Shown: one piece after another, positions 3,516 to 31,949 of the stretch
Position numbering within the stretch: position 1 is the first letter of the stretch
Layout: the number at the start of each line of letters is the position of its first letter
From: a virus
IMG/VR virus record: IMGVR_UViG_3300020395_000052
Span: 1-32,532 of that record
DNA length: 32,532 bases
Strand: one strand, 5' to 3'
Program-made: the position numbers and the translations under genes
Notes under the pieces: generated by a model
What the model saw: only the letters and a program-made list of their open reading frames with translations
The model's database searches: none
Told to the model about the DNA's origin: nothing

Positions 3516-5038
3516 TAGTATATTTTAGCAAATGGTCCGTATTTTGTGCCTTCTTTTTTGGCAAGAAATACCATGTCAGTTCCAAACTGATCTCTGTCCT
3601 CAGGTGTGAGAGATAAGAACTCACTCAACCATTTAATTTGTTGACATTTAGAGTTTGCTACGTGAGGTTTTGTACCAAATACAAATGCTAGGTTATCGTA
3701 TGCTTCGTCTGCAGATTTAGCATCTATTTGTACTCTATTTTTCTGCAAAATACCGATGAGACCTTTCCAATCAGTACTATCATCAATAAACTCTTTTGCA
3801 GTCTGAGGATATGATGCATTATCTTTTGTAAAGTTTAAATTATAATCTTTTAGTAATTGTTCTACCAATTCAACAGTTGCTTTACCTAATCTAGCAGCAG
3901 TAGCACCAGATGAAGTGGGTTCGTATTTTAAATTAGACATCCCAGTACTATTGTTACCTTTGATCTGGAAATTATATGTGTTACCACCATCCTTTACATA
4001 TACTCTTGTGTCCTGAGTAGTTAAAGTTATTGCTCCTTCTTTATCTTTCTTCTTACCCATCTTACAGTCAGCAGCAATGTATGAAAAACGCATCTTAGCT
4101 AAGTTGGCAAAGAACTCACTCTTATCATTCACAAATTCTATTCGTGCATCCTTTCCTGCAGCTACCTTTTTGAGAGAAATACCAAACACTTGTTTGTTTG
4201 CAAACAACACTCTCATTATAGCATTTAATTCAGTAATTGACTTTGCTTTTGAACGTCCTGTTGATCCAGAATTTACCGCAGTATCTATCCTTTTTGTCCA
4301 CGTAGACTCATTTTGTATCAACCAGATGTCAGCAGGGTTCCAGTTGTCCTTAGCACTGATGTTAAAATTATCTTTAACTATTTTAGTGATGAATTCCATG
4401 AACCCACCGTTACGATTGAACTCTGTGAACGCAGGTTTACCTATCTTGGCAAGCAATGTTTTCTGTTGCTTGTAAAAGTTCTCTAACCAAGTGTCATCTA
4501 CCTCATTTACCTTACCAACTCTCTTCCATATATCTTTAATACCATTCATGGTGACATCATCTGCCTTCAATGCATCTGCATCCTTCCACGTTGCGTTATC
4601 TTGTATTGCTCTCCTAAAAACAAAGGCAGAACCAAGTTCTTGCATCTCTGTCATGGTTGCTTCACTAATACTCTTACCAGTAGAGTCAGTTAGTTTACCT
4701 GTTGCTTGAAACTTTACTTTCTGAGTACCAACAAACAGTGTAATATGTGGTTTAGCACCTGTATTAACATCTAATGGTCTCGCTGCTATGTAACTATTCT
4801 TAAATCGTGTGATCAATCTTCTCACAGCACTCTCACTGGTCTTGAGTGAGATCCAAGGTTGGTCTGGTTTGACACCAAATGATGATTTACCATCCCAGTT
4901 ACCATATTTTATGTTAGGATCATGTCTCCATATAGCATCTTGACCCGCAACATCCATAATCATCTCCATCTCTTCCTTAATCGAACGGGATTTGATTGCT
5001 TTTATTAAATCTCTTTGATCAATGTTCTGGTATGCCAT
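3515..5038 (-). CDS. 507-aa protein with candidate PD-(D/E)xK nuclease core
   Basis: Starts at ATG 5038 (MAYQNIDQRDL). The strongest local signal is KDNWNPADIWLI near residues 235-246, followed about 50 residues later by VFGISLKKV. An acidic residue on one strand followed by a hydrophobic-x-x-K-K strand is the arrangement of PD-(D/E)xK nucleases, with D in 'ADIW' and K in 'SLKK' as candidate catalytic residues. The rest has no motif I know. It shares one base (TAATG) with the ligase-like gene, which suggests coupled synthesis and a joint function in end processing. The nuclease call is inference; the protein could also be structural or a regulator. Confidence 0.6.
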   Translation of the reverse strand: MAYQNIDQRDLIKAIKSRSIKEEMEMIMDVAGQDAIWRHDPNIKYGNWDGKSSFGVKPDQPWISLKTSESAVRRLITRFKNSYIAARPLDVNTGAKPHITLFVGTQKVKFQATGKLTDSTGKSISEATMTEMQELGSAFVFRRAIQDNATWKDADALKADDVTMNGIKDIWKRVGKVNEVDDTWLENFYKQQKTLLAKIGKPAFTEFNRNGGFMEFITKIVKDNFNISAKDNWNPADIWLIQNESTWTKRIDTAVNSGSTGRSKAKSITELNAIMRVLFANKQVFGISLKKVAAGKDARIEFVNDKSEFFANLAKMRFSYIAADCKMGKKKDKEGAITLTTQDTRVYVKDGGNTYNFQIKGNNSTGMSNLKYEPTSSGATAARLGKATVELVEQLLKDYNLNFTKDNASYPQTAKEFIDDSTDWKGLIGILQKNRVQIDAKSADEAYDNLAFVFGTKPHVANSKCQQIKWLSEFLSLTPEDRDQFGTDMVFLAKKEGTKYGPFAKIY

Positions 5039-5044
5039 TCCCTA

Positions 5045-5689
5045 CTAGAAGCTTTTCCAATATTTAGGAGGGAGTAACCCAGATTCTGTGTCAGTTCTAT
5101 GCTTGAGGGTTAAAACGATGTCACCAGCGAGACTAATTCTTCTATGTTCTCTGGGTTGAGGAGTAGTATAGTGTTCAAGATTACCAGGAAACATAATAAG
5201 ATGCTCAGGTTGAGGGGTGATCGCATATCCATCACCGTTGTTAAATCTATTTTCTTTAATAAGTTTAAACGCATCTCCAAACCATTCATTAGGGTTCTTT
5301 TTATGTAGTATTAAGGGGTCACCAGGTGTCTGTATGTAATACACCCATGATATATGTGCACATGAGTGGTAGTGACATGGGAAGTGTTGACCAGGATCAC
5401 ATATAGTAAACCAAGTCTTGACAAAATTGACATCAAAAGTGGATTTATCTATTGCAAACTGATCCAAGTACTCAATGGCACATTTCTTCACGGCTCTAAA
5501 AAATTGTTCTAGTCTCCTATCTTGATGGACTAAAACTTTACCGTTTAATTCACCTGTTATCTTACCAGTACTGTTGTCAAATTTACCATCATCAAATCCT
5601 TTGTATAATATGTTCAAAAAACCAGTAAGTTTCTTCTCATATATGATAAGAGGGAATGCTTGATGAAATTTAGAGGTCGTCTTCTGCAC
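5045..5689 (-). CDS. 2-oxoglutarate/Fe(II)-dependent oxygenase
   Basis: About 214 aa from GTG 5689; an alternative GTG at 5722 would add 11 residues and overlap mazG by 53 bases, and neither start has a convincing ribosome-binding site. FPCHYHSCAHISWVYYI is the HxH/HxD metal-binding region typical of the phage and cyanobacterial 2OG-Fe(II) oxygenase group with H-x-H followed by I-S/G-x-V-Y-Y. MFPGNLEHYTTP supplies the distal His, and HRRISLAGD the 2-oxoglutarate-binding Arg. Such enzymes hydroxylate proteins, nucleobases or small molecules using O2, Fe(II) and 2-oxoglutarate; the substrate is unknown. It lies between mazG and the 507-aa gene in the long operon. Confidence 0.85.
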   Translation of the reverse strand: MQKTTSKFHQAFPLIIYEKKLTGFLNILYKGFDDGKFDNSTGKITGELNGKVLVHQDRRLEQFFRAVKKCAIEYLDQFAIDKSTFDVNFVKTWFTICDPGQHFPCHYHSCAHISWVYYIQTPGDPLILHKKNPNEWFGDAFKLIKENRFNNGDGYAITPQPEHLIMFPGNLEHYTTPQPREHRRISLAGDIVLTLKHRTDTESGLLPPKYWKSF

Positions 5690-6074
5690 GTACTTCCGAG
5701 TAGTTAATATCAAACCTACCACCAGGATATCTTTTCTCTAACTTCTTGATGTTTCCTTTAATTACCTCGTCAAAAGATATGTCCAAAGCCATACAAGCTT
5801 GTGCCACATACCACATAACATCACCCAACTCAATAATGAGATGCTTTCTATTATCATCGTTCCATGGCTTCCCTTGGAAGACCATCTTTTTAACAATCTC
5901 CAGAAACTCTCCAGACTCAGCAGCAAGCCCAACGCCAGCAGTGGTAAGGCGTTCAATATTGGCACCCTTTTGGTCAAGTTCAACCAAACGATCAGCAAGA
6001 TAGACAAAATCTTTAGAACTATCGCTTGTGACAGTATCCACGAAATGACTGTACTTATCAAAATCTATTGTCAT
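5670..6074 (-). CDS. mazG: MazG-like nucleoside triphosphate pyrophosphohydrolase
   Basis: 134 aa. LAAESGEFLEIVKK and IIELGDVMWYVAQ give the paired acidic helices (E-x2-E and E-x2-D) that bind Mg2+ in the MazG fold, and the length suits a single MazG domain. The family hydrolyses (d)NTPs or alarmone-like nucleotides to monophosphates. MazG is a common cyanophage auxiliary gene, proposed to modulate host nucleotide pools or stress signals. It sits 26 bases downstream of gp41, in the replication operon, so early/middle expression is likely. Its 3' end overlaps the next oxygenase gene. Confidence 0.9.
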   Translation of the reverse strand: MTIDFDKYSHFVDTVTSDSSKDFVYLADRLVELDQKGANIERLTTAGVGLAAESGEFLEIVKKMVFQGKPWNDDNRKHLIIELGDVMWYVAQACMALDISFDEVIKGNIKKLEKRYPGGRFDINYSEVRAEDDL

Positions 6075-6100: not shown

Positions 6101-7477
6101 TTATACTTTAAGACTGGCAAATTTCTTAGATAAATTCTCCTCGACTTTCTCCATGTCATCTTGTCCTGAATCAGACAAGTTCTGTTGAGCACTTTGCTCA
6201 ACATCATACAACCTCATCTTTGCTCTATCAATACCAATTACAAATCTCTTGTTAACTGTAGGATCATTGTACCTGTTCTTCAATTGTTTAACCATTATCT
6301 GTCCAAGTCCTTCGAGTTCCTCGCTAGAAATGAGAGCGAACATAAGGTCAGCAGTAGCAGGAAGTCCGAAAGATTCAGATGTGTCGGTAAGGTCAATATC
6401 GCTAGAAGCAAACCCAGAACGAGTAGTCTGAGTAGCACTAACAATCGGTAGATTTGCTTCCACAGCAAGACCACGAAGCTCCTCCGCAATCGCCTTGATG
6501 TACGAGTAAGAATTGACATTGCCTGCATTGCCTTTGAAACGTGACGACGCACATATATTGAGGTAGTCTATGAATATTATATCAGGTTTGAATGATTTTT
6601 TCAAGGCCAATTCATTCAGTAATGATTTGAAGTGACCACAGTGTGCTGATGCAGTAGGATATTCTTTAACTATTAACTTACCTTCAGTTTTCTTAGCAAT
6701 ACTTGTCACCTTATTCTCATACATCATCTTAGGTAACTGATTTAAGTTTTGTATATCACAATTTAAAAGGTTACTATCTATTCTTTCGGCAATCTTTTCT
6801 TCTGCCATCTCAAGAGTGATGTACAAAACATCCTTACCTTGGAGTAGAGCAGAGCTAGCAACATGGCACATGAAGAGAGACTTACCCACACCAGTACCTG
6901 CAAGAGCAATGTTGAGAGTTTTATTAGGTAACCCACCTTTTGTGATCTTGTTGAAGAATTCCAGATCAAAAGGTATTTTGTCTTCAGTTTTATGGTAGAA
7001 TTCGTACCTTTCTTCGTAGTCTTCAAGGTAATCGTGACCTATGTGGTTATCGAATGATACTGCTAATGCGTCTGATAGTATAGCAGGTATAGAACCTGCT
7101 GCTCTCTGCTCATCATTGCCTTCTGCAATCTTAATTGAAGACATCAATGCGATATACAATGCTCTATCTTTACACCACTTCTCTGTAACATCCAAAATCC
7201 AATCAGGTTCAGACTTTTCATCGTCTATGCTTCTGATTACGTTTATTATACTCTTATACTGATCATCAGATAGAGTATCTAATTGACCAACTTCAATCTC
7301 TAGTGCTTCCTTAGTAGGTAAAGCATTGTACTGCGTAAAATATTTAGATATAACTTCAAACAAATTCTTCTCTAGAAAGTCATTGAAGTATTCTGCCTTG
7401 ATAAAAGGCAAAGACTTTCTTACAAAGACTTCATCAAGAAGAAGGTTCTTAAGTATTAGGTTCTCTACCCTGTTCAT
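6101..7477 (-). CDS. 41: Replicative DNA helicase, DnaB family (T4 gp41)
   Basis: 458 aa, starting MNRVENLILKNLLL, like other T4-type gp41 proteins and close to T4 gp41 in length. Walker A is LAGTGVGKSLF near residue 190; Walker B is IIFIDYLNIC near residue 300; VSATQTTRSG follows as the DnaB-type sensor region. Gp41 is the hexameric 5'-3' helicase that unwinds the fork with the gp61 primase (not in this window) and gp59 loader. Its start overlaps the preceding oxygenase gene by 29 bases. Regulation should follow the operon promoter at 13230-13258. Confidence 0.95.
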   Translation of the reverse strand: MNRVENLILKNLLLDEVFVRKSLPFIKAEYFNDFLEKNLFEVISKYFTQYNALPTKEALEIEVGQLDTLSDDQYKSIINVIRSIDDEKSEPDWILDVTEKWCKDRALYIALMSSIKIAEGNDEQRAAGSIPAILSDALAVSFDNHIGHDYLEDYEERYEFYHKTEDKIPFDLEFFNKITKGGLPNKTLNIALAGTGVGKSLFMCHVASSALLQGKDVLYITLEMAEEKIAERIDSNLLNCDIQNLNQLPKMMYENKVTSIAKKTEGKLIVKEYPTASAHCGHFKSLLNELALKKSFKPDIIFIDYLNICASSRFKGNAGNVNSYSYIKAIAEELRGLAVEANLPIVSATQTTRSGFASSDIDLTDTSESFGLPATADLMFALISSEELEGLGQIMVKQLKNRYNDPTVNKRFVIGIDRAKMRLYDVEQSAQQNLSDSGQDDMEKVEENLSKKFASLKV

Positions 7478-8012
7478 TAAGTTTCAAAATTAGTGGAACT
7501 GTTAAAGTAATTCTAGTCTCCGTCTGTACGGGAGAACTATGCTCCATATAGGATGGATATATTATAGCATCCCCTTTGTTTATATACAAGCCAGCTGCAT
7601 CTTGCCATTCATCAATGACTGCTGGTTTGAATGCTTGAAGCATTGCTCGTGAGGGATGATGTAATGTATCAGATGCTGCACCATCCACTACATCCACGTA
7701 ATGTATCATAGTATAGTGACTTGGTAAAGTATCAAATCTATCTGTACTTTCTCCTTTCTCTAACACCTTAAGGATGATAGCATCCATAGTGACTTCATGA
7801 GTGTCATAACACCCAATATCAGTAAGAAATTGCTCTATCAAATCAGTATATAACTGAGTTAGATGAGGGTTAAATTCCTTTACACCATATAAAAAAGGAG
7901 AAACAGATGAGAACCTATTTTCCTTCCATATATTAACACAAAAATCAATATAATCTTGGTTATTTTCTACGTGATACTTTCTAACTGGGATTGCAAATAA
8001 ATCGTCTCTCAT
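7449..8012 (-). CDS. 2OG-Fe(II) oxygenase-like protein with missing metal ligands
   Basis: 187 aa. The C-terminal half aligns by eye with its upstream neighbour and with other phage oxygenases: IHYVDVVDG for the 'G-V-x-Y-V' strand, GDAIIYPSYMEHSSPV for the distal His strand, and TRITLTVPL for the 2OG-binding Arg. The segment where H-x-H/D should stand reads STDRFDTLPSHY, so two of three iron ligands appear absent. It may be a catalytically dead or repurposed paralog, or use a different metal arrangement. ATGA overlap with the upstream oxygenase suggests coupled translation and possibly a heteromeric partner. Family membership is moderately sure; activity is doubtful. Confidence 0.65.
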   Translation of the reverse strand: MRDDLFAIPVRKYHVENNQDYIDFCVNIWKENRFSSVSPFLYGVKEFNPHLTQLYTDLIEQFLTDIGCYDTHEVTMDAIILKVLEKGESTDRFDTLPSHYTMIHYVDVVDGAASDTLHHPSRAMLQAFKPAVIDEWQDAAGLYINKGDAIIYPSYMEHSSPVQTETRITLTVPLILKLNEQGREPNT

Positions 8013-8656
8013 ACCTTCACCAAAACACAGTTAAATGCGACAGATATCCTATCTTCTTTTGAATTATTAACGTGTACACCATGACGTAAGTAAGATGGGA
8101 ACAATAATATCTCACCATCCTTAGGTGCAAAATCATATGCAGGAAATATGTCTGTACTTTCTATCAGATCATCAGAATAACCTGCTATATTAGGGTGATT
8201 ATAGTAATTTGGATTTTCAAATTCTATCTTACCACACTCAGGTTGACTTTTAATCCACATAACACCTGCAAGATCACAGTTAGGATGATTATGTCCATTG
8301 TTAAGTGAACCTGGTGGATTAATATTGATCCACATACCTGTCATTTTCAAACCAAATCCTTCTCTAAATCCACCAATGGAAGCTAGACCTTTGGATAGTA
8401 CATTTAGTATGGTTGATTGCTTTGTGTGATAATTATTTTGAGACTGCCAACCATTTATATTAGTTGCTGATGTACCTTGTGGATCTCTACCACGTTCACC
8501 ATAACAGTACCCAATCATTTCATCTTGAAGTTCTGCAAATCCTTTTGCTTTTGCTTGAAATACTAGAGAAGGAAACAGTACTTTAATGTCTGATCCTTGT
8601 GTATTATTTTTATAATCCTCTATGTTAAGAGAGGGAGGTTTCATGCCTGCAAACAT
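8009..8656 (-). CDS. 2-oxoglutarate/Fe(II)-dependent oxygenase
   Basis: 215 aa. NGHNHPNCDLAGVMWIK carries the H-x-H metal motif with the downstream strand of the phage/cyanobacterial 2OG-Fe(II) oxygenase group. ILLFPSYLRHGVHVN gives the distal iron-binding His, and EDRISVAFN the 2-oxoglutarate-binding Arg, so the active site looks complete. The start ATG overlaps the stop of uvsX by one base (TAATG); a second ATG four codons later is possible. Substrate unknown. It is followed immediately by the degenerate homolog, which looks like a tandem duplication followed by divergence. Confidence 0.85.
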   Translation of the reverse strand: MFAGMKPPSLNIEDYKNNTQGSDIKVLFPSLVFQAKAKGFAELQDEMIGYCYGERGRDPQGTSATNINGWQSQNNYHTKQSTILNVLSKGLASIGGFREGFGLKMTGMWININPPGSLNNGHNHPNCDLAGVMWIKSQPECGKIEFENPNYYNHPNIAGYSDDLIESTDIFPAYDFAPKDGEILLFPSYLRHGVHVNNSKEDRISVAFNCVLVKV

Positions 8657-22036: not shown

Positions 22037-22206
22037 TTCGGTTTTGTTTTGTATATACCTATGATACCAAAAAACCGCCCCTTGGGACGGTTGAGTAGAC
22101 ACTTTTTTAACTGGTTGCGTCGCTTTCTTGCTTGACGCAGTGCCTGAGGTTTAAGGTGGCGTTTCTGTTCCTTCTTGGAATGATGCTGCCAGTTTGGTAC
22201 GTTCAT
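22033..22206 (-). CDS. 57-aa very basic ORF bridging two genes, contains a terminator hairpin
   Basis: ATG at 22206 overlaps the stop of the oxygenase gene (ATGA), and its TGA overlaps the ATG of the CobT-like gene (ATGA). The protein reads MNVPNWQHHSKKEQKRHLKP, continues with ALRQARKRRNQLKK, and ends IGIYKTKPK; about a third of residues are Lys/Arg/His. It could bind nucleic acid. The codons for NRPKGRFF coincide with a terminator-like hairpin and T-run. Double four-base overlap supports a real gene; the hairpin argues the region is also regulatory. No family recognised. Confidence 0.5.
   Translation of the reverse strand: MNVPNWQHHSKKEQKRHLKPQALRQARKRRNQLKKCLLNRPKGRFFGIIGIYKTKPK
22069..22092 (-). 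terminator. Intrinsic terminator or attenuator before cobT
   Basis: The minus strand reads AACCGTCC-CAAG-GGGCGGTT followed by TTTT: eight pairs including one G-U, ending in six consecutive T. It would stop or attenuate transcription from the gp46/oxygenase operon just before the CobT-like gene, yet it lies inside the basic ORF. Confidence 0.7.
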
Positions 22207-22814
22207 AGGATCAATCCAAATACTATAGAATACCTATATATGTATTCTTTTGTGGGTCCTAATCCTTTATGAGGGTAGTGAGATGGGAAGACTATGATCC
22301 TACCAGGTTCATAATCATACTCCTCTAGCATTTCTGATTTGTCCTCAGAAAAGATTTGGAATTTACCACCCCACTCTTTTTCCCATGTCGGGTTAGGCAT
22401 TACCATTATAGTATGCTGAGAGCGATCTGTGGGACCATTGCTGTCAATATGTAACGTTCCGTCACATCCGCTATGCTGAAGGTTCACATCTATCCTGTTG
22501 AGATAGACACGTGTGCTGTCTAAGTCAAGTAATCTGCATAGATGCTCAAACATTTTAAAGAAGGTAGGAGCATTCTCGTTATCCAGATATGATATTATAT
22601 TAGGATGGTTCCTCATAAAAATAGAAGAACCAAATAACCTGTGACTACCTTCCTGATGATATGGCCACGTAAAAGAATTTGCAACGTTGCAAGCTCTATA
22701 TTTTAACTTACCTTGGATGATAGTAAAGATATCGTGGAGATATTTTATATCAAACTTATTATCGTATACTCTAGCAAGCACTATCTTTTCTAAATGTGAT
22801 CTGATTGTCACCAC
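22203..22814 (-). CDS. 2-oxoglutarate/Fe(II)-dependent oxygenase, prolyl-hydroxylase-like
   Basis: 203 aa from GTG 22814; a second GTG at 22811 and one at 22781 are alternatives, so the start is uncertain. GTLHIDSNGP carries H-x-D, IIVFPSHYPHKGLG the distal His, and YIYRYSIVFGL the 2-oxoglutarate-binding Arg. The double-stranded beta-helix layout and spacing are complete, so activity is plausible; substrate unknown. WEKEWGGKFQIF is the strand before the distal motif, as in prolyl 4-hydroxylases. It overlaps the 130-aa gene by up to 44 bases. Confidence 0.8.
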   Translation of the reverse strand: MVTIRSHLEKIVLARVYDNKFDIKYLHDIFTIIQGKLKYRACNVANSFTWPYHQEGSHRLFGSSIFMRNHPNIISYLDNENAPTFFKMFEHLCRLLDLDSTRVYLNRIDVNLQHSGCDGTLHIDSNGPTDRSQHTIMVMPNPTWEKEWGGKFQIFSEDKSEMLEEYDYEPGRIIVFPSHYPHKGLGPTKEYIYRYSIVFGLIL

Positions 22815-24891: not shown

Positions 24892-25152
24892 TTATTCCCT
24901 AGGGGGTACTACTATATCATCAGGAGTGACAACATAATATTCGTGACCGCTAGTGACACAAGCTTGAATGATCTCACGATCATCCACCTCTACCACCGAC
25001 ATATCTGGAAAATCATCAGCTTCCAGGAGTCCAGCATAGCGTAAAGCGTCGTCTTTGTCAAGGAACATGTAAACTAACTGGTTACTTTTTGATCCTTTAA
25101 CTGAGTATGCACCTTCTTTTTCTTTTCCTGTAACTGCCAGGATATACATCAT
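24892..25152 (-). CDS. DUF3110-like protein
   Basis: 86 aa. It reads YILAVTGKEKEGAYSVKG, then VYMFLDKDDALRYAGLLEAD, DFPDMSVVEVDDREI and PDDIVVPPRE. This follows the DUF3110 pattern known in cyanobacteria and chloroplasts: 'N-x-G-I-x-S/T', 'M-F-E-D-x-D-D-A-x-R-Y/F-A-x-L-L', 'D-F-P', 'D-x-x-E-I' and a C-terminal 'P-P'. The function of that family is unknown. Start overlaps gp47 by ATGA. If right, it is a host-derived gene and supports a cyanobacterial host. Confidence 0.7.
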   Translation of the reverse strand: MMYILAVTGKEKEGAYSVKGSKSNQLVYMFLDKDDALRYAGLLEADDFPDMSVVEVDDREIIQACVTSGHEYYVVTPDDIVVPPRE

Positions 25153-26195
25153 ACTACCTCCAGTGCTTCCACGTATAAGGTTTTTAAAATAGATTTAAGT
25201 GCAGTCTTATCTTTGTATTCTATTTCATCAACATATCTTTCAAGGATGGTTAGTGTGTCCTCTTTTTCAATATCAATTTCTTCACTCAAGTCTTGTTCAA
25301 AGGATGGATCCTCAATGACTTTGATCTCATGTACACCAGCAGCATAGAGTTGTGATATAAAGAACTCAAATTTGTCTGTGTCCTTTTTCTTTTCTACTAT
25401 GATCTTAATGAAATGATTTGTATAATCTGTGTACTTAAACTTACTACTATTTAACTGATCCTCATGGTAGTATATTTTTTCATAGATGGCATAAGGGTTC
25501 GGTATAAACTCCAATTCCAAAGTTTCAGTATCAAATATATGGAAACCACGCTTACAATTATAGTCATTCCAATAGATTTGGTAGGGATTACCTAGGTATG
25601 TTATGTTCTCCCTCATACTTTTTTGATGATAGTGACCTGAGAATACCTTATCAAATTTCCTATATGGTGCTGTACTATCACCATGATCCATAATATAACC
25701 ACGGTGTGCTTCAAACCCATTGAGTTCTAGGTGTCCCATTGCTACTGGAGATTTACTTTTCTTTATTAAATCATATGTCTCATCATGATTTTCTTCATTG
25801 ATCCAAGGTATGAATAGAATAGGTAGTCCACCTATCTTTACCTCAGTTGCTTTAGTGTATATTGTTACGTTGTCATACTCTCCAACTGTAGTCACGAGAG
25901 TGTTTACTAAATTAGTATTCTTAAAATATGCTGTGTGATTTCCTACTAAGGCATGAACTTCAACTCCCATATCCTTAAGTACATCAAAATAATTATGGGT
26001 TGCCCACTGTGCTGCCCATATATCTAAGTTTCTACGGTTATCAAATGTATCTCCTAGATCTAGAACTGTTGTGATGCCACGTTCTTTAAGTGTTGGAAAG
26101 AACACATTTCTATAGAACTTCTTAAAGAAGTCGTGAAATATTCTACTTGATTTCCTTGCACCAAAATGCTGATCAGTTATGATTACTATCTTCAC
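25149..26195 (-). CDS. 47: Recombination nuclease subunit, SbcD/Mre11-like (T4 gp47)
   Basis: 348 aa, near T4 gp47 (339). Metallophosphoesterase motifs appear in order: ITDQHFG (D-x-H), DLGDTFDNRR (GDxxDxR), LVGNHTAYF (GNH), MGHLELNG and VFSGHYHQKS (GHxH). It is the nuclease partner of gp46. It is chained by four-base overlaps to the aminotransferase upstream and the DUF3110-like gene downstream. Confidence 0.96.
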   Translation of the reverse strand: MKIVIITDQHFGARKSSRIFHDFFKKFYRNVFFPTLKERGITTVLDLGDTFDNRRNLDIWAAQWATHNYFDVLKDMGVEVHALVGNHTAYFKNTNLVNTLVTTVGEYDNVTIYTKATEVKIGGLPILFIPWINEENHDETYDLIKKSKSPVAMGHLELNGFEAHRGYIMDHGDSTAPYRKFDKVFSGHYHQKSMRENITYLGNPYQIYWNDYNCKRGFHIFDTETLELEFIPNPYAIYEKIYYHEDQLNSSKFKYTDYTNHFIKIIVEKKKDTDKFEFFISQLYAAGVHEIKVIEDPSFEQDLSEEIDIEKEDTLTILERYVDEIEYKDKTALKSILKTLYVEALEVV

Positions 26196-27283
26196 TTTAA
26201 CTGACCCTCAAGTACATGAAAGTATTCATCATTCGCATCAATGGGAATGGTAAACATTCCTTTAAACTCACGTTCAATTTCAATTATCGTTCCGAACTGT
26301 CCTTTGATAGTATAACCTAAATTCTGAAACAAGTCAACCGCCCTTACTACGATGTCCCTGTGCTTCTTCATAAGGAGTTCATCTTCTAGTATTTTAATAT
26401 ATGCAAGACAACTTAAGATGCCTGGCAAACTGAAGCTGTAAGTAAATCCATGCTCCCAGTCAAACCTTCTGGGTAGTGCTTCATGTATCTTGTCATTATA
26501 TAATGCAATACTTAATGGAAAGTATCCTCCTGTGATTGCTTTTCCCATTGTAAAGATGTCAGGATTAACTGGGATCTTCTTCCATCCCACAAAGTTTCCT
26601 GTCTTCCCTCCTCCTGTGAAGATGTCGTCTACTATTATAATAACACCTTTCTTCTGTATCTGTGAGATATTAGTCCAGAACCTTTCACTATGAGGTTTGA
26701 TACCATTGACATAAGGACAACTCTCTACCACAACACACATGACATTATCCCAGTTGTAATGATCCACATAGAAGTCAACTGGCAATCTTAGTATATTCTG
26801 ATATGGTTTCATTGTATAAAATGGATCATTAAACAGACCATCACCCATGCTCTGAGTTAACATAGTAGATCCATGGAAGCTACCTTTGAATGTAACTATG
26901 CCATTACGTTGATGCTGACCTACTTCTTTCTGATATGCACTAGCAAGTTTGACTGCACCTTCAACTGCGTCACTACCACTCAATGAGAATATACTTCTAT
27001 ATCCTGTAATACCCTTGAGCATCTTTGCTAGTTTCCATGTACAGTTGTTTAACTTGAGAGGTTGAGCTTCAAAGAAGTTCTCACCTATCTCAGGTTTGAT
27101 ACACATATTGTCACGTACATAGTTCATGATCTGCATACGACCATACCCTAATGTATAGCAACCAAAATTTAACATAGGATCTACGTACTTCCTACCATCT
27201 AAGTCCATTCTTCCATAGTCCCAACCATACTCTTGCTGCCCGACGTTTTTTTGGGTACCTGGTATTAATCCTGGATATTTCAT
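26192..27283 (-). CDS. Class III PLP-dependent aminotransferase (BioA/GSA-like)
   Basis: 363 aa, shorter than typical class III enzymes (about 420-450). GRMDLDGRKYVDPMLNFG is the N-terminal substrate-side signature, LSGSDAVEGAVKLASAYQ the PLP-phosphate loop helix, VTFKGSFHGSTMLTQS the Y/F-H-G-x-T motif, IIVDDIFTGGGKTG carries the PLP-nitrogen Asp, and FTMGKAITGGYFPLS the Schiff-base Lys. All catalytic residues look intact; the C-terminal domain is reduced. Family members move amino groups in biotin, heme, arginine or polyamine pathways. The substrate is unresolved. It is linked by ATGA-type overlaps to an oxygenase upstream and gp47 downstream, so it is co-translated with core phage genes. 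Confidence 0.88.
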   Translation of the reverse strand: MKYPGLIPGTQKNVGQQEYGWDYGRMDLDGRKYVDPMLNFGCYTLGYGRMQIMNYVRDNMCIKPEIGENFFEAQPLKLNNCTWKLAKMLKGITGYRSIFSLSGSDAVEGAVKLASAYQKEVGQHQRNGIVTFKGSFHGSTMLTQSMGDGLFNDPFYTMKPYQNILRLPVDFYVDHYNWDNVMCVVVESCPYVNGIKPHSERFWTNISQIQKKGVIIIVDDIFTGGGKTGNFVGWKKIPVNPDIFTMGKAITGGYFPLSIALYNDKIHEALPRRFDWEHGFTYSFSLPGILSCLAYIKILEDELLMKKHRDIVVRAVDLFQNLGYTIKGQFGTIIEIEREFKGMFTIPIDANDEYFHVLEGQLK

Positions 27284-27933
27284 CTAGACCTCCTCAATGG
27301 TGGTATCTTACCTGTCATTGCCATACCAAAAAAGTTTAAAGTTAGACGTTCCTTAGTGCCAAAAGTATAAACACCATGGTGTGTATGGTTGTTAAACAAA
27401 ACAAATCTGTTGTATACATTCTCTACCCTGACTGTTGGGGTGTACTGTGCATGTACTTTATTCCAGACCTTTCTATACTCATCTGGATCTACTTCCTCAC
27501 CCCTATAAAGTTTTTCCTTCATGGTAATCTCATCAGGATACTGAAACCCATACCCAGAGGATGTCTTATAAATCGACGTTCCTGAATCTGGGGATGGGTC
27601 TTTGTTTAAGTATACTATACCACCAAAGTGTGTATCAATGTCTTGATGTACCCATCCTCTATTGAGTGGGTCATACTGATCTTCTGAGAAAGGTTGTATC
27701 TTCTGGAAGTGCGTCTGCATATTCCAGTACTCAGGTTTGCCATCATGGAAAAGGAGATGTACTTTCTCACCAAAGTAATTAAAGAACCTCTCTTCTACCA
27801 CATGAAGTTGCTTAGTACGTGTACCTGGCCAGTTACCACGGTCAGGTGGATAGTACTTCAAAGCATTGGCCATCTCCACAATGGCATCAGGATCCTCAAA
27901 GAAATCATCAACTATTGTAATAGGATATGTCAC
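27280..27933 (-). CDS. 2-oxoglutarate/Fe(II)-dependent oxygenase
   Basis: 217 aa from GTG 27933, which overlaps the gp55 stop (GTGA). MTYPITIVDDFFEDPDAIVE is the usual start of this oxygenase group. GWVHQDIDTHFGGIVYLN has H-x-D and the next strand, RFVLFNNHTHHGVYTFG the distal His, and KERLTLNFFG the 2-oxoglutarate-binding Arg. The active site is complete. It is followed by the aminotransferase with a four-base overlap, which suggests consecutive or complementary chemistry. Substrate unknown. Confidence 0.85.
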   Translation of the reverse strand: MTYPITIVDDFFEDPDAIVEMANALKYYPPDRGNWPGTRTKQLHVVEERFFNYFGEKVHLLFHDGKPEYWNMQTHFQKIQPFSEDQYDPLNRGWVHQDIDTHFGGIVYLNKDPSPDSGTSIYKTSSGYGFQYPDEITMKEKLYRGEEVDPDEYRKVWNKVHAQYTPTVRVENVYNRFVLFNNHTHHGVYTFGTKERLTLNFFGMAMTGKIPPLRRSR

Positions 27934-28403
27934 TTAATTCTTAGTTCTACGTTCTCCTTAATTGTATTATAGTCTGAATGTCCAGTCTTGTCATCTGTAT
28001 GGAAGACCTGATCATATCCTGACTTGGTTAGTATCTTATTCTTTATTTCTAACTGTCTCTTCTCTTTCTGTATGCGTCTTAGAAAGGCATAGTAAATGAT
28101 CTGAGTGAAATATGCAAATGGGTTTCTTGACTTCTCTGGATTAAAGTTCTCTATGTACTGTACACAGTTCTCGATGCCATCACATATCATATCCTCACGG
28201 AACATGTAATTGACAAAGTTTGGTTTATATGATAAGTGTGTAGCAATCTTTAAAAAACATTCCCCAATGTAATTGCTGATCTGAGGACGGGGTTGATCCG
28301 CTTCCTTAGCAGCAGCACATTTATCCTTGAATACAATTAGTGCTTCAAGAAACTCTTTATTGTTTACATAATGCTCACTCTGTACCTTCCTTCTAACGGC
28401 CAT
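27930..28403 (-). CDS. 55: Late-transcription sigma factor (T4 gp55)
   Basis: 157 aa, reduced like T4 gp55 (185). IGECFLKIATHLSYKPNFVN, then MFREDMICDGIENCVQYIEN and FAYFTQIIYYAFLRRIQKEK correspond to sigma region 2 as found in gp55; region 4 is lacking, as expected. It directs host RNA polymerase to TATAAATA-type late promoters with gp33 and the gp45 clamp. GGAG stands 7 bases before the ATG, and a sigma70-like promoter lies just upstream, so it is probably transcribed early or middle. Confidence 0.93.
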   Translation of the reverse strand: MAVRRKVQSEHYVNNKEFLEALIVFKDKCAAAKEADQPRPQISNYIGECFLKIATHLSYKPNFVNYMFREDMICDGIENCVQYIENFNPEKSRNPFAYFTQIIYYAFLRRIQKEKRQLEIKNKILTKSGYDQVFHTDDKTGHSDYNTIKENVELRIK

Positions 28404-28412
28404 ATATTATCT

Positions 28413-28457
28413 CCTTATGTATACAGTATACACTATTTTGTTAAAAAACGCAAGGGG
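28413..28457 (-). promoter_or_regulatory. Predicted sigma70-like promoter for gp55, with paired GTATAC sites
   Basis: On the minus strand TTGCGT, 17 bases, then TATACT lead to the gp55 start. The -10 lies in GTATACTGTATAC, two palindromic GTATAC copies one base apart, which could be an operator. The -35 is only 4 of 6 to consensus. Confidence 0.5.
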
Positions 28458-28460
28458 GGC

Positions 28461-28489
28461 TTGACAACTGTTGTAATTCTTGGTACAAT
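28461..28489 (+). promoter_or_regulatory. Strong plus-strand sigma70 promoter with extended -10, opposing all genes
   Basis: TTGACA (28461-28466), exactly 17 bases, TACAAT (28484-28489), with TGG directly before the -10 (extended -10 TGn). Five of six -10 bases and all six -35 bases match consensus. Predicted start about 28496. No plus-strand gene follows, so the transcript would be antisense to the small gene at 28516-28896 and to uvsW. Confidence 0.65.
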
Positions 28490-31340: not shown

Positions 31341-31348
31341 TATTTATC
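31341..31348 (-). promoter_or_regulatory. Late-type promoter GATAAATA
   Basis: The minus strand reads GATAAATA, seven of eight bases of the T4 late consensus TATAAATA. It overlaps the cupin stop codon (31344-31346) and is 22 bases upstream of ATG 31318. The same stop-overlap arrangement occurs at 1759-1766. Confidence 0.55.
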
Positions 31349-31949
31349 CAAGCCAGAAAACTTCTGGATCTCTTATTTTGTCGTAGATATTAAATCTGAA
31401 GTCTTTAAAATCTGGTTTACTTGTTTCGTTATGTGCAGCATCTATCCATGACAACTCGGCATTCTTACCTCTGGTACTCTGCCCTTCCACATCATCAATG
31501 TTGTATTCACCAACATAGTTCTCACCAACTGTAGTAGGTTTGACACCATTCTGCCAGTGTTGTACTGACATGAATATGGATCTACCATCACCCATGAATG
31601 CACCATGTATATCATCATGGTATACCTTAAGGGTAAAAAAATCGGATCGCATTTTACATATCTTCTCTTGTTCTGGATGACTGTCTATCCAATAACCACC
31701 ATGACTAAAACTTATCTTGCCACGTATGTATACTTCATAACTGTCAATGTCTGGATGTCTATGTTCTGGGATGATAGCATGTGGTGGCCAGTTCAAGCAT
31801 TCAACTTGGTACTGTCCTTCCTTGTACATAACCTTTCTATGAAAGTTAGGTACACCAAAGAAATTTCTATTCCAACCTTGGGGTTTTATTATTTCGCGAG
31901 GATTGAAGGTACTCAAATACTCATCAACAAAACCTGTGATGGCATCCAT
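31344..31949 (-). CDS. Cupin-like protein, possible metal-dependent enzyme
   Basis: 201 aa. PEHRHPDIDSYEVYIRGKIS gives the cupin motif 1 pattern H-x-H-x(n)-E-x(n)-G, and HDDIHGAFMGDGRSIFMSVQ may be motif 2 with its His. A six-stranded beta barrel with a metal bound by HRH, E and H is likely. Cupins include dioxygenases, isomerases and binding proteins; substrate unknown. The ATG is preceded directly by the T-run of a terminator and by no ribosome-binding site, so expression is puzzling. It lies between the capsid region and the tail-tube-like gene. Confidence 0.75.
   Translation of the reverse strand: MDAITGFVDEYLSTFNPREIIKPQGWNRNFFGVPNFHRKVMYKEGQYQVECLNWPPHAIIPEHRHPDIDSYEVYIRGKISFSHGGYWIDSHPEQEKICKMRSDFFTLKVYHDDIHGAFMGDGRSIFMSVQHWQNGVKPTTVGENYVGEYNIDDVEGQSTRGKNAELSWIDAAHNETSKPDFKDFRFNIYDKIRDPEVFWLG

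Follow-up and report, generated by a model that had tools for sequence, protein, structure and literature searches.

What do an aminotransferase and a putative iron oxygenase do between the gp55 and gp47 genes of a virus? The question is raised by positions 1 to 32,532 of IMG/VR virus record IMGVR_UViG_3300020395_000052, a 32.5-kb viral fragment with T4-like gene order (hereafter ‘the window’, meaning the whole stretch analyzed). In it, a class III aminotransferase (AT) gene and a gene for a DUF6445 protein, predicted to be a 2-oxoglutarate (2OG)-Fe(II) oxygenase, separate gp55 from gp47. A first-pass annotation, made from the sequence alone, had proposed that the two enzymes modify one substrate in turn. 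We found that the AT falls in a branch of a known enzyme class seen so far only in viruses, sits in a cargo slot and is partnered in other viruses by another enzyme – a predicted amidinotransferase. Our best explanation, held tentatively, is that the two genes form an optional cassette of metabolic genes occupying the variable gp55–gp47 slot of P-HM2-like cyanomyoviruses, the AT making an amine and a guanidine step following in other phages. Cyanophage 2OG oxygenases are very common and their function is unsettled; an AT that neighbors such an oxygenase here and an amidinotransferase in other viruses suggests a concrete chemical hypothesis – oxidize, aminate, guanidinylate.

Two intact enzymes and a virus-only aminotransferase branch

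The AT is predicted to be a class III aminotransferase from its domain, its pyridoxal phosphate (PLP)-binding lysine, its cofactor motifs and its fold. It shares with omega-transaminases, BioA, ArgD and putrescine aminotransferase the PLP lysine (K248) together with aspartate (D219), SGSD (S102-G-S-D105), HG (H137-G138) and threonine (T281) motifs, all invariant in 38 AT homologs. An AlphaFold2 model built from 38 viral sequences (pLDDT 82, pTM 0.85), which superseded an earlier model with a pLDDT of 71, matched class III transaminases with a Z of ~36 over ~345 residues, at 17–24% identity and reaching the last helix.

The DUF6445 protein carries the iron ligands H96-x-D98 and H186 and a distal arginine, R196, in 49 of 49 sequences. 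This HxD...H motif and distal arginine mark it as a predicted 2OG-Fe(II) oxygenase, and on their basis we rejected the ‘minor coat protein’ label of PHROG 1644. Ratios of nonsynonymous to synonymous substitution were 0.11–0.19 for the AT and a similar 0.13–0.25 for the oxygenase, with lower values (0.08–0.09) for gp47. Both enzymes are thus complete and under purifying selection, as the first-pass annotation had held for their completeness, and the loss of the active-site lysine or of iron ligands in homologs, which it had named as evidence to the contrary, was seen in neither. The window encodes four more 2OG-Fe oxygenase-like genes on the minus strand (5045–5722, 7449–8012, 8009–8656 and 22203–22814), two of them adjacent; at least three 2OG oxygenase genes in the window besides that of the slot have Pfam support.

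The C-terminal domain sets the AT apart from other class III enzymes. Its shortening had been read earlier as a sign of changed specificity. The shortening is real: 32 residues follow the conserved Gly331, compared with ~60–70 in E. coli GabT, ArgD and BioA. Because the structure comparison extends through the terminal helix, which is kept, the ~30–40 missing residues must be lost from inside the domain. However, all the viral relatives show the same shortening, and a specificity change peculiar to this protein is not supported. In many class III enzymes, the substrate carboxylate is bound by an arginine four residues before a proline. We saw no such arginine in the 38 AT sequences, where alignment of the C-terminal domain is uncertain. 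Since global hhalign comparison of this domain gave an arbitrary alignment, we word the point cautiously: the sequences are suggestive of a missing carboxylate arginine, for which a basic residue near position 338 could substitute. In seven loci (L015, 6001–7140, and L016–L021), the AT carries an insertion of ~17 residues with a CxxC motif (TCRDCGDGRKIPVK).

Scans of 2.9 million viral contigs yielded at least 100 AT loci. By comparison, no AT relative above 29% identity came from 84,980 bacterial and archaeal genomes, which were scanned twice: the first scan confirmed none, and the second gave eight general class III enzymes at 23–29%. These cellular scans use short patterns and could therefore miss a distant source; in the collections searched, the AT clade is confined to viruses. 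The first-pass annotation had suggested a phylogeny of the AT against BioA, glutamate-1-semialdehyde (GSA), ornithine and diaminobutyrate enzymes, and in our tree the viral ATs group on a single long branch, separate from BioA, GSA aminomutase, GabT, ArgD, PatA and diaminobutyrate aminotransferase. Nor does the AT clear any curated NCBIfam subfamily cut-off: its best scores against the named subfamilies (BioA, ArgD, ornithine aminotransferase, GabT, putrescine aminotransferase and others) are 127–139 bits, where the cut-offs are 372–729. We rejected matches in named phage records as orthologs, since they reach at most 29% identity and lie mostly on bacterial contigs filed as phage or are unannotated; the aminotransferases returned by a structure search of viral models were all of low identity (at most 14%). 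No paper describing this AT, or its pairing with an amidinotransferase, turned up in the open-access literature searched, although such papers may exist.

The amidinotransferase partner in other viruses

The strongest association in this study links the AT to an amidinotransferase. In 55 of the 57 AT loci outside the window lineage, an amidinotransferase gene lies close downstream of the AT on the same strand – a near-fixed partner that the substrate pairing proposed in the first-pass annotation had missed. The link is reciprocal, with an AT upstream in 53 of 57 amidinotransferase loci with sufficient flank, and it holds in 24 of 26 cases once near-identical ATs are removed. In the AT tree, the window-type clade (Shimodaira–Hasegawa (SH) support 1.0) is sister (0.92) to the amidinotransferase-linked clades.

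The partner is predicted to be a pentein-type amidinotransferase. Its profile matched the solved structures of HsvA (1e-49), arginine:glycine amidinotransferase (AGAT; 1e-38), SxtG (7e-37) and StrB (2e-36), and the Asp/His/Cys catalytic residues (D175, H215-x-D217 and C341), shared with these enzymes, are conserved; it matches nothing in Pfam at an E-value of 0.1. Unlike HsvA, AGAT, SxtG and StrB, the viral branch is fixed beside a class III AT; as far as sampled, the window lineage has no member of it. Amidinotransferases are also encoded by Campylobacter phage CP220 and Synechococcus phage S-SCSM2R, at 27% and 22% identity, the latter with 2OG genes nearby; the neighbors of these two are radical-SAM and sugar-transferase genes, and no AT of this family is annotated in the regions examined.

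Some loci differ in their surroundings. The four exceptions among the 57 amidinotransferase loci (L238, 1322–2835; L239, 2961–4474; L240; L242) come from T4-like phages in which the gene lies between gp23 and a tail-tube/gp3 gene and adjoins a DUF6875-like protein; no AT is present on these contigs. In one viral group (L075, 3398–11000, and L080–L089), the AT and amidinotransferase genes are part of a cluster resembling a small biosynthetic gene cluster, with Trp-halogenase-like, DUF6875-like, 2OG, AT, amidinotransferase, methyltransferase-like, S-adenosylmethionine (AdoMet) decarboxylase and 2OG genes. One member, the 236-kb contig L082, carries besides the pair an AdoMet decarboxylase and a further two amidinotransferase-like genes, one of which contains an in-frame TGA. 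DUF6875 is a weak match for the neighbor of the pair in some loci; a search with the family gave no match anywhere, controls included, and so shows nothing. DUF6875 proteins have been described as heme proteins that oxidize tryptophan (PMC13307353). Finally, a porphobilinogen deaminase (HemC) gene lies near the pair in 12 loci from marine phages (L022, 2770–3684, and 11 others).

The gp55–gp47 cargo slot and competing explanations

We examined the gap between gp55 and gp47 in 80 gp55 loci, which are a sample and not a census. The gap was empty in 29; where filled, it held small open reading frames, an HNH-like gene (L142), a nuclease-like gene (L151) or a Trp-halogenase-like flavoprotein (L129), the last three identified by eye from sequence. 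Such varied or absent inserts mark the gap as a cargo site. In L129, the halogenase-like gene (4468–5751) is the sole cargo. Ten of the 80 loci carried the oxygenase without the AT, making the oxygenase the more widespread resident. The Prochlorococcus phages P-HM2, P-HM1 and MED4-213 (Eurybiavirus) share the gene order and the location of the oxygenase with the window (63%, 55% and 57% identity, respectively) and differ from it in having no AT between the oxygenase and gp47.

Among 26 window-type AT loci, a DUF6445 oxygenase lies directly upstream of the AT in all 26. The oxygenases that partner the AT are scattered in the oxygenase tree, with a main clade of 20 (SH 0.92). Seven of the 26 loci (L015–L021) have two oxygenases in tandem, the first grouping near that of MED4-213 (SH 0.66) and the second near that of L152 (SH 0.89), and the AT of these loci nests among window-type ATs. 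This split argues that the AT has been combined with several oxygenase backgrounds (at least two), always behind an oxygenase. The co-occurrence that the first-pass annotation had anticipated therefore runs one way: every AT in the slot comes with the oxygenase, whereas the oxygenase often occurs with no AT. Elsewhere, 23 of 26 non-redundant ATs have a neighbor with a 2OG motif, drawn from at least three other gene families, compared with 19% of distant genes. A short open reading frame in L037 (7077–7340), also found in L038, begins like a 2OG oxygenase, ends like an AT and appears to be the scar of a former tandem AT–oxygenase duplication.

In our best explanation, the AT would have joined the slot from a viral gene pool that holds it as half of the near-fixed AT–amidinotransferase pair, and the cassette genes are probably transcribed together with gp55 and gp47 from a sigma-70-like promoter before gp55. 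The AT would move an amino group onto the carbonyl of a small molecule (an aldehyde or ketone) to give a primary amine, which in other phages the amidinotransferase may convert to a guanidine, arginine serving as the donor. For the window lineage, the amine would be the end product, or might be used otherwise. The neighboring 2OG oxygenase could plausibly furnish the carbonyl or a hydroxylated substrate. That the oxygenase and the AT share a substrate is the weakest step, and we regard it as doubtful: the 26/26 pairing and the 2OG neighbors elsewhere favor action in turn on one substrate, as first proposed, whereas solo oxygenases and the abundance of 2OG genes do not. A broader version, which we think unlikely, would have marine viruses run a pathway of their own in which 2OG oxygenases, AT and amidinotransferase act in sequence to add first an amine and then a guanidine to a metabolite or macromolecule, with the window type keeping the first two steps and using the amine.

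Several observations weigh against the cassette explanation. The oxygenase occurs without an AT in P-HM1, P-HM2, MED4-213, S-H25 and S-RIM4, as well as in ten sampled contigs. 2OG genes are dense in cyanophage genomes – one survey (PMC3037559) had them in 14 of 16 genomes, and there are ten in S-CREM1 and 24 in S-SCSM1 (PMC9964418) – so that neighborhood is weak evidence. The 2OG motif is loose, being carried by half of size-matched distant genes, and the AT loci with 2OG neighbors share kinship. The amidinotransferase is absent from the window, from its 129-kb and 52-kb relatives and from the complete P-HM2 and MED4-213 genomes, the window-type genomes being incomplete; as sampled, the window lineage lacks the partner, and the AT may therefore play a new role there. 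Both entry into the slot without the partner and later loss of the partner would fit this absence.

These points lead to the main competitor, a possible account to which we give rather less than even credence: the gap would accept insertions readily and express them well, the AT and oxygenase being unrelated cargo with different substrates. It accounts for a slot that carries many unrelated inserts or nothing, for the oxygenase alone in cultured phages and for an AT whose strongest link elsewhere is to the amidinotransferase rather than the oxygenase. It sits less easily with an AT that is always accompanied by the oxygenase in the slot, across at least two oxygenase lineages, and with the 2OG-type neighbors, from other gene families, of ATs elsewhere.

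We consider it improbable that the AT serves ornithine, polyamine or arginine nitrogen metabolism, elsewhere handling ornithine released by the amidinotransferase or making or using a polyamine, and in the window lineage shifting host nitrogen pools. The class III enzymes related to the AT include ornithine/ArgD and putrescine aminotransferases, and HsvA, the nearest solved amidinotransferase, is described as a polyamine enzyme (as cited in PMC12833800). An AdoMet decarboxylase adjoins the AT–amidinotransferase pair in one viral group, and this and the likeness to HsvA are hints of a polyamine link. However, no AdoMet decarboxylase turned up in the window, in its relatives or in the group-2 genomes tested; missing from most genomes tested, the gene was rejected as a general part of the system. 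The AT also falls far under every named subfamily cut-off, and the canonical carboxylate arginine is unseen in its uncertainly aligned C-terminal domain.

It is very unlikely that both enzymes chiefly alter host 2-oxoglutarate and glutamate, and thereby the nitrogen response run by NtcA, of which cyanophages supposedly take advantage. This fits the frequent use of 2OG and glutamate by class III transaminases. An effect of this kind has been put forward for cyanophage 2OG oxygenases (PMC3037559). That both enzymes are single-copy and keep their active sites points to specific substrates instead, and an NtcA-like site before gp55 is present in only part of the relatives, with such sites near chance in the window; lacking conservation across relatives, NtcA control of the gp55 region was discarded. 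Least probable, and without support here, is modification of a phage DNA base by oxidation, then amination, in the manner of phage thymidine hypermodification: such a sequence of reactions would be suitable, and the genes adjoin replication and recombination genes, but the oxygenase matches DUF6445 only, with no TET/JBP-type model, and the window showed no further hypermodification gene, although these were not looked for systematically.

Gene junctions, promoter and neighboring genes

The minus-strand gene order is uvsY, uvsW, Sm-like, gp55, oxygenase, AT, gp47, DUF3110 and gp46 (Table 1).

Table 1. Features in and around the gp55–gp47 slot of the window.
Feature	Positions	Strand	Evidence
Sigma-70-like promoter before gp55 (TTGCGT, 17 nt, TATACT)	28425..28453	minus	upstream regions of ~40 relatives
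gp55 late sigma factor, left border of cargo slot	27930..28403	minus	phrog_234, E 5e-69
2OG-Fe(II) oxygenase-like (DUF6445)	27280..27933	minus	DUF6445, E 2e-11
Strong AT Shine-Dalgarno GAGGAGG, within oxygenase gene	27286..27295 (approximate)	minus	sequence
Class III aminotransferase (AT), 363 aa, PLP Lys248	26192..27283	minus	PF00202, E 1.8e-42
gp47 recombination nuclease subunit, right border of cargo slot	25149..26195	minus	phrog_100, E 6e-116
DUF3110 protein, next after gp47	24892..25152	minus	PF11360, E 6e-19

The chaining of gp55, oxygenase, AT and gp47 by GTGA or ATGA junctions, described in the first-pass annotation, was borne out at all three junctions when coordinates and overlaps were checked (4-bp overlaps GTGA, ATGA and GTGA in turn), and the gp47/DUF3110 junction likewise overlaps by 4 bp. 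The same form occurs at 14 of 39 junctions of the window gene set, and across all AT loci the junction of the AT with the next gene is 4 bp at 54 of 80. Because they are this common, the overlaps by themselves signify nothing special: they reflect tight gene packing, with translational coupling likely, and do not demonstrate a particular link.

A general promoter scan found no more in this region than chance would give. The position of the promoter before gp55 is fixed across ~40 relatives, whose copies are nearer to consensus. Two sequences upstream of it on the minus strand, TTGTCAAGCCCCC (28455–28467) and a ACTCGTATTGTAC stretch, are kept in nearly all relatives. Further away, upstream of gp3, a conserved 201-aa protein without a Pfam or PHROG match (31344–31949, minus strand) has, by eye, an HRH-type cupin-like motif.

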